Below are positions 32,815 to 53,819 of a stretch of DNA of 56,005 bases, in pieces. Source of the DNA: Bdellovibrionales bacterium (lineage in GTDB: Bacteria; Bdellovibrionota; Bdellovibrionia; Bdellovibrionales; UBA1609); contig JALZUS010000003.1 of the NCBI GenBank assembly GCA_023299885.1, positions 1 through 56,005 of the forward strand. The letters run 5' to 3'. The position numbers were made by a program, and so were the translations under genes. The notes beneath the pieces were generated by a model that saw nothing but the letters and a program-made list of their open reading frames with translations, did not search any database and was not told the DNA's origin. The stretch's first letter is position 1. Every line of letters starts with the position of its first letter.

Positions 32815-33240
32815 TTACAGCTTGGCTCCTATATATGTGACACTTAAAACTTCGCCTTGAGTTAAAAAGTCATTTATAAAAAGCTGAAGCTCTTTACCCA
32901 TTTTATTTTGACCTTTTTTACTTAATACCGTGTCTGAAGTGTTTGAAGAAAAAGTCATAGAAATCATATTTTCAAACTGACTCCCCATACTATCTATTTC
33001 TTGTTTTACACGGTTGTTACTGCAGTATAATTTAAAATCAAGCTCGTAAGCCTTAATTCCTTTATTTGAATTTAATCTCACTAGTAGTTTTTTTTCTGAT
33101 ATATGATTGCTTGTTCTAGGCTTAACCTCTACCACTTGATTAGGAACATTGTTTGTTTCTTTGTGAGTGTTTAATGACCTGTACATAAATAATCCTGCAC
33201 TGATCATAAGAGTTAAAATTAAAAAAGGTTTTATCAACAT
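32815..33240 (-). CDS. fliL: FliL-like basal-body-associated protein
   Basis: 141 aa from the ATG at 33240 (a GTG is immediately before it). One N-terminal transmembrane segment (residues 4-19) precedes a periplasmic domain with the FliL C-terminal pattern: ...S-M-T-F-S-S-N-T-S-D-T-V-L-S-K-K-G-Q-N-K-M-G split here for length, then I-N-D-F-L-T-Q-G-E-V and a final beta strand. FliL forms rings around stators and raises motor torque. Similarity is limited to the C-terminal half, so confidence is moderate; the following FliM/N-position gene and fliO support it. Confidence 0.62.
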   Translation of the reverse strand: MLIKPFLILTLMISAGLFMYRSLNTHKETNNVPNQVVEVKPRTSNHISEKKLLVRLNSNKGIKAYELDFKLYCSNNRVKQEIDSMGSQFENMISMTFSSNTSDTVLSKKGQNKMGKELQLFINDFLTQGEVLSVTYIGAKL

Positions 33241-33417
33241 CACACAAGTATCAATTGCAACACGGATACCAAGCAGACCTTGTGACAGACAAGATGCTTA
33301 AAACAAATCTAGAGTGTTTGAAAAACGTCTAGGATCTGAATTTTGTCGATTTTAATAACTATAAGACTAATTTTTGACTGGCCCTAAGAAAGGCCACTGG
33401 ACTTAGTGTGGTCGAAA

Positions 33418-37421: not shown

Positions 37422-37611
37422 AAACAACACCAAAGTCTTGCTTTTCTGGATATTATGACACCAGAACAATATGAAATATCCTAAATAATTAGGCCATAAT
37501 GGCCCCAAAAAAACTTTTAACCCTTTTATTTTCGATCTGTGTCTTGGCATCTTTCCTGCTTTATAAAGTGGTGAGGGTTACAAAAAAACAAAACACTAAA
37601 GGAGTGGTTAT

Positions 37612-38355
37612 ATGTATAAAAAAATTCTTACACTTGCGACTATTGGAGCGGCCTTATTACTGGCATCACCTGCACAAGCTTACCAAGAAGTAGTTAATCT
37701 TCGGTTAGGACAACTAGAAGTTCGGGGACAAAACCAACTCCTTAATATAGGACAGCAGCTAAGGTCTAGAGGCTATAGCTTAATAGGCAAAGAGGTTGTC
37801 TCTGTGACAGTAAATGCTGTAAGCAGAGTAGGTTTACGCACTAATCAATACGGAACACTCAGTTTAAGATCTGGATTTAATACAACTTACCCACAAACCG
37901 TTTATGGAGATCGACATGCATATCAAAGTCCACGATCTCGAGATTTTCAACAAGTTACTTTATACACACCTTACTCAAGAACAGCATCCAACAGCCAAGT
38001 TTCTCTAGTTGTTGACGGACCTATTAAGCTTGGACAAATCAGAGTTGTTTTAAATAATACAAGAAGAGCACCAGTAAACCGTACACCTAGAGGTTGTTAC
38101 ACGGATAGACATCATCGCACTATTTGTAACGGAGTTATTATAGACAGCGGCCGTAGAGACAGAACAAGAGGCTGTACTGTAAACAGAAGAGGACAACGAG
38201 TATGTACAGGGAACGACAGTCGTCGTGGTAATGACCGTACTGATGGCAGGCGTGGAAATGACAGACGTGATGATAGCCGCTCTGACAGAAACCGTGGCGG
38301 AAGCGACCGTGGTAATGACAGAGGGAACGATCGCGGAAGACGAGGCGGAAGATAG
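37612..38355 (+). CDS. Secreted basic protein with Cys repeats and Arg/Gly/Asp/Asn-rich tail
   Basis: 247 aa. A clear signal peptide (M-Y-K-K-I-L-T-L-A-T-I-G, cleavage after S-P-A-Q-A near residue 23) precedes a beta-rich domain of about 125 residues. Two copies of a G-C-x9-C-x-G motif follow (first C-Y-T-D-R-H-H, second C-T-V-N-R-R-G), and the last ~45 residues are a low-complexity run of R, G, N and D (R-R-G-N-D-R repeats). It is strongly cationic and probably binds an anionic polymer such as LPS, DNA or peptidoglycan, but no family is recognised. AAAGGAG lies 7 nt before the ATG. Confidence 0.75.
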   Translation: MYKKILTLATIGAALLLASPAQAYQEVVNLRLGQLEVRGQNQLLNIGQQLRSRGYSLIGKEVVSVTVNAVSRVGLRTNQYGTLSLRSGFNTTYPQTVYGDRHAYQSPRSRDFQQVTLYTPYSRTASNSQVSLVVDGPIKLGQIRVVLNNTRRAPVNRTPRGCYTDRHHRTICNGVIIDSGRRDRTRGCTVNRRGQRVCTGNDSRRGNDRTDGRRGNDRRDDSRSDRNRGGSDRGNDRGNDRGRRGGR

Positions 38356-48955: not shown

Positions 48956-50032
48956 TTAAAATTTGAGAGAGCACATAAAACTGCTCATTCTTTTTCCATT
49001 CTTAATATCAGATATTTCTTGATTAACTTCATCAGCTGAAATTCTCTCCGACATGAGTAGCTCTTTGTCGCGCAGTGACAGCTGTAGGAAATTTACAATA
49101 GGCTCCATGTTTATATTTTTATCTTGAAATAGACGCCTTAAGCAAAGGTAGCTATCAAAATTAATCTCATCTATTCTTTTCTGCACAACCCCAGCAAGCC
49201 TGTTTTTAAGATTTTCTGAACCCTGACTATCAATATCCGCTACCAAAGCTTTAAGCGCATCCCTGTCTTTACTTTCAATATAATTTATAAAACTAGCCAC
49301 CAAGTAATCATTTTCACTACTATATTTTCTCTTCTCTAGCTCTTGTCTTAGCAAAAAAAACACACTGTTATACTCAGTGATTGCCATTGGATTAACTTCA
49401 AGCTTTGAGGTTACTACACTCGATAGCAGACCAATAATAAATTTTAATGAGTTACCATTTAAATTTGCTAATTCTTCTTTTGAAAACTTTAAATTTGTAG
49501 AATTAAAACCAGAACTACTTGTTGAATAAATACTGTTAACAGCCTGCATCTCTTCTTTTAATAATAATTTAATTTCATTACTTATATTATTGTTAGACTC
49601 TAAATAGCTTTTCTTTTCGCAGCTATAGTAGTCAATATTATCATTACTAATATCATAACTCTTTTTTAAATTTTTAATACTTGTTTTCTCATACAAAGCT
49701 GACTTCACCCACCCTTGCTTTTGATAGATAACAGCGTCACTCACATATACAAAAGAATGAAGGCCACTGGCATAGCCAATCGCACCCTCTTGTGGGCTTT
49801 CTAATTTTTCACACAACTCTGAAGCAAGTATAGCCTCAAGCTCACCAAAGCTAGTGTATCCGACATAATCAATTAAGCCTGACATATATAAAGAGGCATT
49901 ATTACAGTTTGGGCCAGCCAAATCACTCAAGTTACTTTTTAAGTACTCAAACTTACTTTCAATAGTAGCTGAAGCAATTGCTGACATTAAAGTAACTGTA
50001 ATTATAAGTAAAAATTTATTATCTATTTTCAT
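48956..50032 (-). CDS. Secreted protein, possibly NlpC/P60-like
   Basis: 358 aa. A signal peptide (residues 1-22, ...S-A-I-A-S-A) precedes a segment G-P-N-C-N-N-A-S-L-Y (Cys near residue 43) and, after E-G-A-I-G-Y-A, G-L-H-S-F-V-Y-V-S-D (His near residue 92). This Cys-then-His spacing, with an intervening 'GAIG' turn, recalls NlpC/P60-type papain folds acting on cell-wall peptides; it is an inference from spacing, not a firm family match. Residues 140-358 are a helical domain of unknown type. It converges on the DUF507 pair. Confidence 0.6.
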   Translation of the reverse strand: MKIDNKFLLIITVTLMSAIASATIESKFEYLKSNLSDLAGPNCNNASLYMSGLIDYVGYTSFGELEAILASELCEKLESPQEGAIGYASGLHSFVYVSDAVIYQKQGWVKSALYEKTSIKNLKKSYDISNDNIDYYSCEKKSYLESNNNISNEIKLLLKEEMQAVNSIYSTSSSGFNSTNLKFSKEELANLNGNSLKFIIGLLSSVVTSKLEVNPMAITEYNSVFFLLRQELEKRKYSSENDYLVASFINYIESKDRDALKALVADIDSQGSENLKNRLAGVVQKRIDEINFDSYLCLRRLFQDKNINMEPIVNFLQLSLRDKELLMSERISADEVNQEISDIKNGKRMSSFMCSLKF

Positions 50033-50346
50033 ATATATAGTTAAATGCAGAATGAGTGCCTACCAAAAGCCACTAAAATAGATGTGAGCTTGATATCATA
50101 AGTATATTACAAAAATTGGCACAACTTTAACTAGAGCACTAAACACCCATCTCATTTTTAACCTTTTCATGTGCCCCGGGGGTCCAATAATTAATCCCCC
50201 AAATGTGCCATTCTGGGGCCAAAGTGACACTAATCTGGTCAATTATGCAATATTTTCATGGCATTTTGGCTTTCTTATAAAATTTAAAAACCCTATAACT
50301 ACCTGTAATTACTTTACTTATTAAAAACGCAACAATCATACTACAT
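50033..50346. other. Intergenic region upstream of the CHASE2 kinase gene, with GC-rich repeated sites
   Basis: No gene is visible. Two related GC-rich blocks stand out from AT-rich surroundings: 50171-50185 (GTGCCCCGGGGGTCC, containing the palindrome CCCCGGGG) and 50205-50220 (GTGCCATTCTGGGGCC), about 35 bp apart. They lie 130-180 bp upstream of the -24/-12 promoter, a usual place for activator-binding enhancers. GGGGG (50178-50182) and CCCCC (50196-50200) also form a small inverted repeat. Confidence 0.4.
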
Positions 50347-50363
50347 TTGGCAGGACTTTTGCT
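50347..50363 (+). promoter_or_regulatory. Near-consensus sigma-54 promoter of the CHASE2 kinase/NtrC operon
   Basis: TTGGCAGGACTTTTGCT has the invariant GG (50349-50350) and GC (50361-50362) at the exact 10-bp spacing of -24/-12 promoters. The expected start point is about 50374, only two bases before the ATG at 50376. Confidence 0.6.
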
Positions 50364-50375
50364 CAGTATATACGT

Positions 50376-52235
50376 ATGAGCAAGCGAACATTATTTAAAA
50401 AGAACTACAAAATAATAGGCCTAAAAACCTTAAGACTTTGTGCTGCTCTATTATTAACGACTATTTTAACAAATTTTAAATTCCACTCTGTTGAGTCTTT
50501 CTTTTTTGATATGAGGGTTAAATATAAACCCACATCAATGGTGTCTGACATTGTTAAAACAATAACAATAGACCAAGAAACATTAGAAGCCTTAGGACAA
50601 GAGCCCGATGCTGTACAACACACTGATCTTTTTAAAAAGCTTCAGGCTGCTAAGCCCTTAGCTGTTGTTTACGAAGCCGATATAGAAAATGTTGTGGGCT
50701 CTTATGAAGAGCTCGAAAACATGACAAAAAGCACTAGTGAAATTCCTTTTTACGTAGCTGCAAACACTCTGGCTGCCAAAGGTTTAGAGCATACTCTTAC
50801 ATTGCCGCCTCCAATGGAAACCATTAAAGTGGTTCAAGGGCCCAGGACTTCTGACACACATTCTTTTGCAAAAGATGGAGTAACACGTAGGCTTATTTAC
50901 TCATACCAAGATAAAAAAACTTTACATGGTGTTTTAGCTGACAAAGTAAACCAACATAAAAGTCATGATGACTACAATGGTATGTTTTACTTTATCGAAA
51001 CACAGCAAGCCTTAATAGACTATAAACCAAAGGGCTCATACCCAGGAACTAGCTTTTCTAAGCTTTTATCTGGCGAAACTGGTTTTGAAAAATTTAGAGG
51101 AAAAATAGTAATCATTGGCCATGATTCAGGTACACATACAAAGGATTACGTAAGGACTCCTTTTTCTAAAACTGTAAATGCTATGTCTTCATTAGAGCTT
51201 CACGCCAACATGATGGACACTCTTATTTTAGACTCGGCACCTATACAGCCACCTAAATGGATTACATTTTTTATTACTTTCTTTATCTCTTATATTGTAA
51301 TCATTGGCGTATTAATGCTGACTCCAGTACAAGGCCTAAACTCATTATTAATTGCATGTTTTTCTTTCATGGTAATTAGTTATGTTTTAGCAAGCTTTGC
51401 CAATGTTTACTTAACAATGGCTCACCCTTTAATTGCCGCTTTTTTATGTTACTACTTTGCTGTCCCTTACAGGCTTATCAGAGAAAACCAAAAAAGCTGG
51501 GAGTACTACCAAAAAAATAAACTTCTTACACAAGTTGAAGAGCTTAAATCTAACTTTTTAAGAATGATGTCACATGATTTAAAAACGCCACTTGCAAGAA
51601 TTGCTGGCATGACTGATATCATTAAACGTGACTCTAATGCTTTAAGTGTAGGGCAAACAGATGCCATTGATACTATTAAACAGTCGTCTCAAGAGCTTAC
51701 AGAATTTATCGGATCTGTATTAAGCTTAGGTCGTATTGAGAGTAAAGAAATTAAACTTCAACTTCAAAGCAGAGACGTTAATGTTTTACTAGATGAAGTT
51801 GTTAAAAAAGCAGAGTACTTAGCTCAAAAGAAAAATATTGAAATTATTAAAGAGTTTGAACCTTTATTTAGTATCCAAGTTGATACCGAGCTTATTCGTC
51901 AGGTTTTCACTAACCTTATCGAAAACGCTATTAAATATAGCCCTGAAAACTCTAAAGTCTTAGTAAGCACTGAAGACCGTGATGGAAAAGTGATTGTACA
52001 AGTAGCTGACCAAGGGATTGGGATTTCTCAATCAGAGCAAGAAAATATATTTGTTAAATTTTACAGAAGTCGTGAGGTTTCTAATACAAATATCAAAGGC
52101 TCTGGCCTTGGCCTTTACCTCGCTAAATATTTTGTAAACTTACATGAAGGCGAAATTACAATTGAAAGTGAAACCAATAAGGGTTCGACGTTCCAAGTGG
52201 AACTTCCAACCAGCTTACACACAGTAAGTAATTAA
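50376..52235 (+). CDS. CHASE2-domain sensor histidine kinase
   Basis: 619 aa. One transmembrane helix near residue 20-37, a periplasmic CHASE2 domain (about 40-285, F-F-F-D-M-R-V-K-Y, then V-I-I-G-H-D-S), three closely spaced helices (about 290-370), a short coiled coil, HisKA with the phosphorylatable H400 in M-S-H-D-L-K-T-P, and a HATPase with N-L-I-E-N-A-I-K-Y, D-Q-G-I-G-I and G-S-G-L-G-L-Y. The signal is unknown. It is cotranscribed with the response regulator 42 nt downstream. No Shine-Dalgarno precedes the ATG, which fits a leaderless message. Confidence 0.88.
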   Translation: MSKRTLFKKNYKIIGLKTLRLCAALLLTTILTNFKFHSVESFFFDMRVKYKPTSMVSDIVKTITIDQETLEALGQEPDAVQHTDLFKKLQAAKPLAVVYEADIENVVGSYEELENMTKSTSEIPFYVAANTLAAKGLEHTLTLPPPMETIKVVQGPRTSDTHSFAKDGVTRRLIYSYQDKKTLHGVLADKVNQHKSHDDYNGMFYFIETQQALIDYKPKGSYPGTSFSKLLSGETGFEKFRGKIVIIGHDSGTHTKDYVRTPFSKTVNAMSSLELHANMMDTLILDSAPIQPPKWITFFITFFISYIVIIGVLMLTPVQGLNSLLIACFSFMVISYVLASFANVYLTMAHPLIAAFLCYYFAVPYRLIRENQKSWEYYQKNKLLTQVEELKSNFLRMMSHDLKTPLARIAGMTDIIKRDSNALSVGQTDAIDTIKQSSQELTEFIGSVLSLGRIESKEIKLQLQSRDVNVLLDEVVKKAEYLAQKKNIEIIKEFEPLFSIQVDTELIRQVFTNLIENAIKYSPENSKVLVSTEDRDGKVIVQVADQGIGISQSEQENIFVKFYRSREVSNTNIKGSGLGLYLAKYFVNLHEGEITIESETNKGSTFQVELPTSLHTVSN

Positions 52236-52277
52236 GTAGAACGTTTTTAAAAAACTTAACATAGAAAGGACTATGAT

Positions 52278-53741
52278 ATGTTAAAAGTTTTAGTAGTAGA
52301 TGACGATGCAGGATTGAGGCTCTCAGTAAAGAGCTCACTCTTAGAGACAGGCCGTTTTGAAGTTGAAGAGGCTTTTGATGGCGTTAATGCCATGGAAAAA
52401 TTTAAAGAAGGCTCTTATAACCTTGTGGTTTTAGATGTTGATATGCCAAGAATGAATGGCCTTGAAACTTTAAAAGCTCTTAAAGCCCATGACCCCTCTG
52501 TGATTGTTATTATCATGACGGCTTACGCAACTATTGATGATGCTGTACAAGCTGTACGCGATGGCGCTTATAACTATATTTCTAAACCTGTTAGTAGCGA
52601 AGCCTTACTGGCTTTAGTAGATAAAGCTTTAAGTGCACATAGCCTTATTTCTCAAGTGGCGGCTTCTGCACCTGAATTAACAATGGGTTCTAGAAAAATT
52701 ATTGGTAACACAGCGCAAATGCAAAAAGTGTTTCATATTATTGACCGTTTATCTAAAGTGGATACACCTGTTTTAGTGCGTGGTGCTTCTGGTACTGGTA
52801 AAGAAATGGTAGCAAGAGCTATTCACTTAAACTCAACTTTTAAAGATGGGCCATTTGTACCTATTAACTGCTCTGCCATCCCAGAAAACTTATTTGAGTC
52901 AGAATTATTTGGCCACGAAAAAGGCGCTTTTACAGGCGCTGACCAACGTAAAATTGGTAAGTTTCAATTTGCTGAAGGCGGGACCATTTTCTTAGATGAG
53001 CTTGGTGATATGCCAGTCCTTATGCAAGTTAAATTATTACGTGTGTTACAAGAAAAAATGTTTACACCTGTTGGCGCCAATAGAGAAATCCAATCTAATG
53101 TTAGGATTATTGCTGCCACTAACAGACCTTTAGAAGAAATGATGACTAAAGGTACATTCCGTGAAGATTTATATTACAGACTTAATGTAATGCCGATCTT
53201 TTTACCAGAGCTTAAAAAACGTATTAATGATGTAGACCATTTAACAAATACATTTATTAAAAAGTTTAATGAGCGCCAAGGCAAAAAAGTAATTGGCGTA
53301 TCTAGCGAAGCTATGGCTTGCCTTAAAAAGTACACATGGCCTGGAAACATTCGTGAGCTTGAAAACGTGATTGAGCATGCTTTTATTTTAGTAGAAAACA
53401 ATATGATCACTTTAAGCGCACTACCCGAAAACATCTTAATGGCTGCAGGTATAGATATCAGCGCCGCTAATTTAAACCCGGTAGCTATGGAGCCTAACAA
53501 ACCAGCCGCTGAAGTGAGTACTGGCGAAAAGAAAGATAGCGATTATATCAAAATCGAAGGCGATCAATTAGATTTTAGCCGCCATAAAGAAGCCTTTGAA
53601 AGAGAGTTTATTGTTAAAGCCTTAACTATGTTTAAAGGCCGAATCAATCAAACAGCATTACATGCAAATATCCCAAAAAAGACATTACTTCGTAAAATTG
53701 AAAAGTACGGATTAAATGCAAAGGATTATTCTGCACAATAA
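52278..53741 (+). CDS. NtrC-family sigma-54-dependent response regulator
   Basis: 487 aa. The receiver has the phosphoacceptor D53 (V-V-L-D-V-D-M-P), with D8-D9-D10 and K near 106. The AAA+ domain has Walker A G-A-S-G-T-G-K-E near 168, the sigma-54 contact loop G-A-F-T-G-A, Walker B I-F-L-D-E-L-G and an arginine-finger region. After a variable linker (about 390-440) the Fis-type helix-turn-helix ends in P-K-K-T-L-L-R-K-I. It activates sigma-54 holoenzyme when phosphorylated by the upstream CHASE2 kinase. AGAAAGGA lies upstream of the ATG. Confidence 0.93.
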   Translation: MLKVLVVDDDAGLRLSVKSSLLETGRFEVEEAFDGVNAMEKFKEGSYNLVVLDVDMPRMNGLETLKALKAHDPSVIVIIMTAYATIDDAVQAVRDGAYNYISKPVSSEALLALVDKALSAHSLISQVAASAPELTMGSRKIIGNTAQMQKVFHIIDRLSKVDTPVLVRGASGTGKEMVARAIHLNSTFKDGPFVPINCSAIPENLFESELFGHEKGAFTGADQRKIGKFQFAEGGTIFLDELGDMPVLMQVKLLRVLQEKMFTPVGANREIQSNVRIIAATNRPLEEMMTKGTFREDLYYRLNVMPIFLPELKKRINDVDHLTNTFIKKFNERQGKKVIGVSSEAMACLKKYTWPGNIRELENVIEHAFILVENNMITLSALPENILMAAGIDISAANLNPVAMEPNKPAAEVSTGEKKDSDYIKIEGDQLDFSRHKEAFEREFIVKALTMFKGRINQTALHANIPKKTLLRKIEKYGLNAKDYSAQ

Positions 53742-53788: not shown

Positions 53789-53819
53789 AAGCCCTCGTCT
53801 AGTCAACGAGGGCTTTTTT
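53789..53819 (+). terminator. Intrinsic terminator of the two-component operon
   Basis: AAGCCCTCGT (53789-53798) pairs perfectly with ACGAGGGCTT (53806-53815) over a 7-nt loop and is followed by a T tract. Confidence 0.9.

Follow-up and report, generated by a model that had tools for sequence, protein, structure and literature searches.

A probable leaderless sigma-54 promoter of a sensor kinase–regulator operon and a recurrent class of such promoters in Bdellovibrionales

A sigma-54-type promoter needs an activator. Leaderless mRNAs have been mapped in Sinorhizobium (PMC3616915), Leptospira (PMC5243855), and Bradyrhizobium (PMC4842269), and the leaderless motif described in Bradyrhizobium is an extended −10 element (PMC4842269), the only promoter motif for leaderless messages that was found reported being of the sigma-70 type (PMC4842269). 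Searches of the open-licence literature found no description of sigma-54 being coupled to leaderless mRNAs, and the main text of the start-site map of Bdellovibrio bacteriovorus, which lists 140 attack-phase starts for strain HD100, is silent on leaders (PMC3627812). In a lineage where leaderless starts repeatedly occur at one fixed distance from promoters of an activator-dependent sigma factor, stringent control of transcription would be tied to a separate mode of translation. The DNA stretch analysed here (the window, 56,005 nt, G+C content 36.5%) constitutes a single contig of a Bdellovibrionales genome of 1.84 Mb, for which the genome-wide statistics were obtained by pattern searches. This genome carries rpoN (PF00309 match on C65) and eight strong sigma-54 activator domains (PF00158), one of which belongs to the operon of a CHASE2 kinase located in the window. 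Elsewhere in the same genome (L049, contig 33, ~2435, minus strand), a consensus sigma-54 site, TGGCACTCCTATTGCT, with a G+C-rich hairpin and a T run within ~60 nt, looks like a sigma-54-driven small RNA. Pattern search returned zero sigma-54-plus-ATG matches in the genomes G001, G014, G029, and G030, which are among the smallest of the family (1.3–1.6 Mb) and may have lost rpoN.

The operon consists of two genes on the forward strand. The first one (50376..52235) encodes a CHASE2 sensor histidine kinase of 619 aa, recognized by the Pfam domains CHASE2, HisKA, and HATPase_c, which starts with ATG, lacks a Shine–Dalgarno (SD) sequence, and has orthologues in most relatives. The second gene (52278..53741) is preceded by its own SD (AAAGGA, 52265–52270) and encodes an NtrC-type response regulator composed of a receiver, a sigma-54 activator AAA+ domain, and a Fis-type HTH. 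The regulator matched the Pfam models Response_reg and Sigma54_activat (E 5.7e-71), while HTH_8 remained just under the cut-off (21.5 vs 22); together with the GAFTGA motif read in its translation, the Sigma54_activat domain bears out the sequence-only reading, which had taken the second gene of the operon for a sigma-54 activator. The operon is closed by an intrinsic terminator-like hairpin of 10–11 pairs followed by a T run (53789..53815, forward strand).

The −24/−12 promoter TGGCAGGACTTTTGCT ahead of the kinase (50348..50363, forward strand) was recognized from its sequence, from pattern counts in the genome, and from the upstream regions of orthologues. It comprises GG at 50349–50350, ten spacer bases, and GC at 50361–50362, after which come CAGTATATACGT and the ATG at 50376. 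The site is an exact match to TGGCA-N6-TTGCW, stands one base off the fuller consensus TGGCACG-N4-TTGCW, and scores 18.5 of 19.2. The TGGCA-N6-TTGCW pattern has 20 copies in the genome (13 of them intergenic according to a reading of the match list), compared with a single copy of the backwards pattern. Sites scoring at least 16.5 appear in the coding DNA of the orthologues at a background rate of 7.7e-5 per position, from which 2.6 strong sites would be expected within ~350 nt upstream of the kinase in 90 distinct orthologues, whereas 18 of the 90 have one. The genomic count and this enrichment rule out a chance match as the source of the promoter, and the consensus GG-N10-GC promoter proposed for this place is, in fact, near-consensus and well above background. 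It is also unlikely that the main message comes from an upstream sigma-70-type promoter and carries an SD-less leader, the sigma-54 site being minor or inactive. One sigma-70-like match (9 of 12) is found at 50164–50191, and 185 nt of upstream room are available for such a promoter, but the number of sigma-70-like matches in the region does not exceed that in shuffled sequences (18 vs 21.9), a message of this origin would equally be devoid of an SD, and strong sigma-54 sites recur upstream of the kinase orthologues.

With the sigma-54 site as the operon's promoter, the transcription start is predicted at G50374 or A50376 (50374..50376, forward strand), based on the spacing from the −12 element and on the bases found downstream of 53 intergenic sites. 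When the C of the GC is set as −12, +1 falls on G50374, 2 nt before the ATG, and this predicted spacing agrees with the earlier placement of +1 at about 50374. In the 53 sites, of which 21 were classed as leaderless and 32 as other, the base at C+13 is mostly a pyrimidine and the one at C+14 mostly a purine in both groups, the C+14 base of the leaderless sites usually being the A of the ATG. If the pyrimidine–purine step serves as the initiator, the message would start at the A of the AUG with zero leader; if the textbook −12 rule holds, it would carry two leader bases. Since the predicted leader amounts to 0 or 2 nt under either rule, an SD has no room in it, and none was found in 50340–50375, where the sole AGGA (50352–50355) sits within the promoter, as the claimed absence of an SD would have it. 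Judged by sequence, the kinase gene thus has the marks of a leaderless one, its AUG lying at the predicted +1 (50374–50376) or a few nt from it and the SD being absent. The promoters of orthologues mostly have longer leaders, and only one other leader is clearly as short (L029, 5 nt).

The same arrangement was searched for in 59 Bdellovibrionales genomes as TGGCACN5TTGCW followed by an ATG after 8–14 nt, and the DNA was recovered for nearly all. An ATG was regarded as ORF-opening when the ORF had at least 80 aa, which was the case for 41 of 94 ATGs. With every close relative counted as a separate genome, the spacing of the window, an ATG exactly 14 nt from the C of the GC, was seen in 20 of the 41 ORF-opening cases, compared with 6 of the remaining 53 (Fisher p=7e-5). 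For about one quarter of the 41 ORF-opening ATGs, an SD-bearing later start is plausible, and these genes are probably leadered; the remainder have no such start. In 141 genomes of the order, with close relatives again counted as separate genomes, 40 matches were found at the spacing of the window, which makes it about three times as common as the control spacings 3 nt shorter (14 matches) and 6 nt longer (13 matches; binomial p ~5e-4 and 3e-4, respectively). The leader-length histogram was left out of these statistics because part of its loci had been picked by spacing. Many products of the class, as assessed by eye and hydropathy, begin at the ATG with a signal peptide or a lipobox, e.g., L206 (MTNKLIISIFISLLFFSCAQ), L224, L246, L277, and, in the source genome, L183, which argues against a downstream start. 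Pfam searches with ten leaderless products gave five matches above the cut-off (PLD, subtilase, two SLT transglycosylases, and DNA-processing A). Several candidates of the class occur in the cultured B. bacteriovorus kdesi, with matches at 3105757, 2200671, 2562991, 294010, and 1942242 of its chromosome, and one (L310) in a Bacteriovoracaceae genome. At the level of sequence patterns, a leaderless sigma-54 class is therefore real, and the kinase operon conforms to it. Consequently, the earlier opinion that a leaderless message for a sigma-54-driven kinase would be unusual stands against the general literature, but not within the order, where many genomes contain members of the class to which the arrangement belongs. 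As an observation apart, the L183 locus (contig 66, 11661 and 12960) contains two neighbouring similar lipoprotein genes, each with a sigma-54-like site and an ATG 1–2 nt after the predicted +1.

The base composition of the initiator is ruled out as a full account of the class by the contrast between ORF-opening and other ATGs, although single cases can mislead. Such a case is C9:28855 of the source genome, where the same geometry precedes a lipoprotein gene whose likely start, equipped with an SD, lies ~100 nt downstream; this site was rejected as a second leaderless case because the internal start is likelier. The example lends some weight to the view that the kinase ATG, at +3, is also a by-product of initiator composition and that translation starts elsewhere. 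For the kinase, this is very improbable. Its frame contains no ATG, GTG, or TTG until the ATG at 50511, 135 nt further on, which is inside CHASE2 and past the first membrane segment, and the orthologues likewise keep a short N-terminus ahead of that segment, so that the start codon is well fixed; moreover, ATGs that open no ORF show no peak at the spacing of the window.

The orthologous operons differ in their first gene. In many relatives, the kinase–regulator pair is preceded by a radical-SAM/SPASM gene (~425–450 aa) and a gene for a small peptide of ~30–50 aa that begins with a KHIKK-like sequence and has a Cys close to its C-terminus, as in B. bacteriovorus kdesi (MEQQTHIKKIKPQKPKPNTNPKAGPGNGTGEGCIPVR, L099) and in L002, L004, L005, L006, L025, L027, L028, L337, L341, L346, and others. 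Among operons lacking the radical-SAM gene, 16 of 29 have a strong sigma-54 site adjoining the kinase, compared with none of the 29 that contain this gene (p=1.7e-6). In the four radical-SAM operons with readable upstream DNA (L337, L341, L345, and L346), a strong sigma-54 site lies 54–129 nt downstream of the start of a palindrome described below; it clearly precedes the radical-SAM frame in three of them, the start of the frame being ambiguous in L345. The sigma-54 promoter therefore accompanies whichever gene opens the operon; in the window, where a search revealed no radical-SAM gene, this is the kinase, and the promoter lies directly against it. The radical-SAM enzyme of the relatives is related to PapB-type ranthipeptide maturases, but its NF047865 score (181.5) is far below the curated cut-off of 340, and no family model was matched above cut-off by the radical-SAM/peptide cluster. 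The two genes are candidates for a modified-peptide (RiPP-like) cluster that has a two-component system of its own. Because it so often follows these genes in relatives, the kinase–regulator pair appears to regulate an unnamed modified-peptide cluster.

A de novo palindrome search upstream of the kinase orthologues yielded GTGTCA-N3-TGACAC as the top word. With up to two mismatches, the palindrome is present in 21 of 90 orthologue upstream regions, in 1 of 90 shuffled ones, and in 0 of 90 coding stretches. Exact copies occupy 17 places in the 59 genomes (3 for a control pattern), and 12 of the 17 are located upstream of the kinase–regulator operon, eight before the kinase and four before the radical-SAM gene, ~1.6–1.7 kb upstream of the kinase. 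This rarity elsewhere rules out a general sigma-54 enhancer. In the window, the best intergenic match, GGGCCAAAGTGACAC (50216..50230), is a putative upstream activating site located 117 nt upstream of the promoter. The probable autoregulation suggested for the operon is hence supported by a comparative argument, namely the tie of the palindrome to this operon across genera, and the operon's own regulator would be the protein that binds it. As a counterpoint, the window copy is imperfect, with one perfect half-site and two mismatches in the other half, and, after shuffling, about one upstream region in 90 contains a copy with two mismatches. This imperfection, along with the eight strong activator domains of the genome, any other of which could act at the kinase promoter, favours an alternative in which the promoter is real and leaderless but is activated by another enhancer-binding protein. 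We regard it as improbable, as the palindrome is almost confined to the kinase–regulator operon, where it accompanies the sigma-54 site of the opening gene, whichever that is.

A weaker sigma-54 site, AGGCACTCATTCTGCA, is found on the minus strand at 50046..50061 (score 16.9 of 19.2), with its predicted +1 located 3 nt before the ATG at 50032 of a divergent gene (48956..50032, minus strand). This ORF encodes a protein of 358 aa with a signal-peptide-like start and without an SD, for which zero matches were obtained in Pfam and NCBIfam. Given the background rate in the coding DNA of the orthologues, roughly one gene in 2000 would have a site as close as this by chance. The divergent gene is probably a second leaderless sigma-54 gene of the window and possibly under shared control with the kinase operon, as GGGCCAAAGTGACAC sits between the two promoters and one palindrome could serve both. 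At 33240–33271 of the window (minus strand), a possible further leaderless sigma-54 start is marked by TGGTATCCGTGTTGCA, with GTG or ATG located 2 or 5 nt past the predicted +1 and a frame of 141–142 aa with a hydrophobic N-terminus. At 37545–37612 (forward strand), TGGCATCTTTCCTGCT is an ordinary leadered sigma-54 promoter, and the gene at 37612 has an SD and a leader of 41 nt.

Taken together, these results point to the following mechanism, in which the start site, the leaderless translation, the binding of the palindrome, and the sign of the feedback are predictions. The CHASE2 kinase would phosphorylate the regulator, which in its phosphorylated form would bind the palindrome at 50216–50230 and contact the sigma-54 RNA polymerase held at 50348–50363. 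Transcription would start at 50374–50376, and the message would therefore begin at the kinase AUG or 2 nt before it and end at 53789–53815. The kinase would be translated by leaderless initiation and the regulator, from the same message, via its own SD, the loop being one of positive autoregulation. That the operon is, as a whole, a leaderless sigma-54 operon driven by its own regulator and a member of a recurrent Bdellovibrionales class is, in our opinion, likely. A wider and much more tentative proposal is that the order has a sigma-54 ‘leaderless regulon’, in which promoters 14 nt before the AUG drive exported hydrolases, lipoproteins, and some regulators from SD-less messages. If this were true, sigma-54 output would pass through leaderless initiation and could be controlled apart from SD-led messages, e.g., at a predator phase switch. 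The class is likely to interest specialists more than the single promoter, and the idea can be tested at once, since the cultured B. bacteriovorus has both candidates and mapped start sites (PMC3627812).

Compared with described systems, the locus resembles the pairs of CHASE2 histidine kinases and NtrC-type regulators in both domain order and gene order, whereas, unlike many of the pairs in relatives, it is not preceded by radical-SAM/SPASM and small peptide genes. It also resembles sigma-54 (RpoN)/NtrC-type systems, with the GG-N10-GC promoter, the presence of rpoN and activators, an activator within the target operon, and, as a putative activating site, an imperfect palindrome ~120 nt upstream. 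The usual sigma-54 promoters differ from it in their leaders: the other sigma-54 sites listed by the pattern search typically have an SD before an ATG 15–45 nt downstream, while the predicted leader of the kinase comprises 0–2 nt and has no SD. In this respect, the kinase gene is similar to known leaderless mRNAs, its AUG being at, or a few nt from, a 5′ end that is here predicted from sequence. Unlike the extended −10 element of leaderless messages in Bradyrhizobium (PMC4842269), however, the promoter in the window is of the sigma-54 type.
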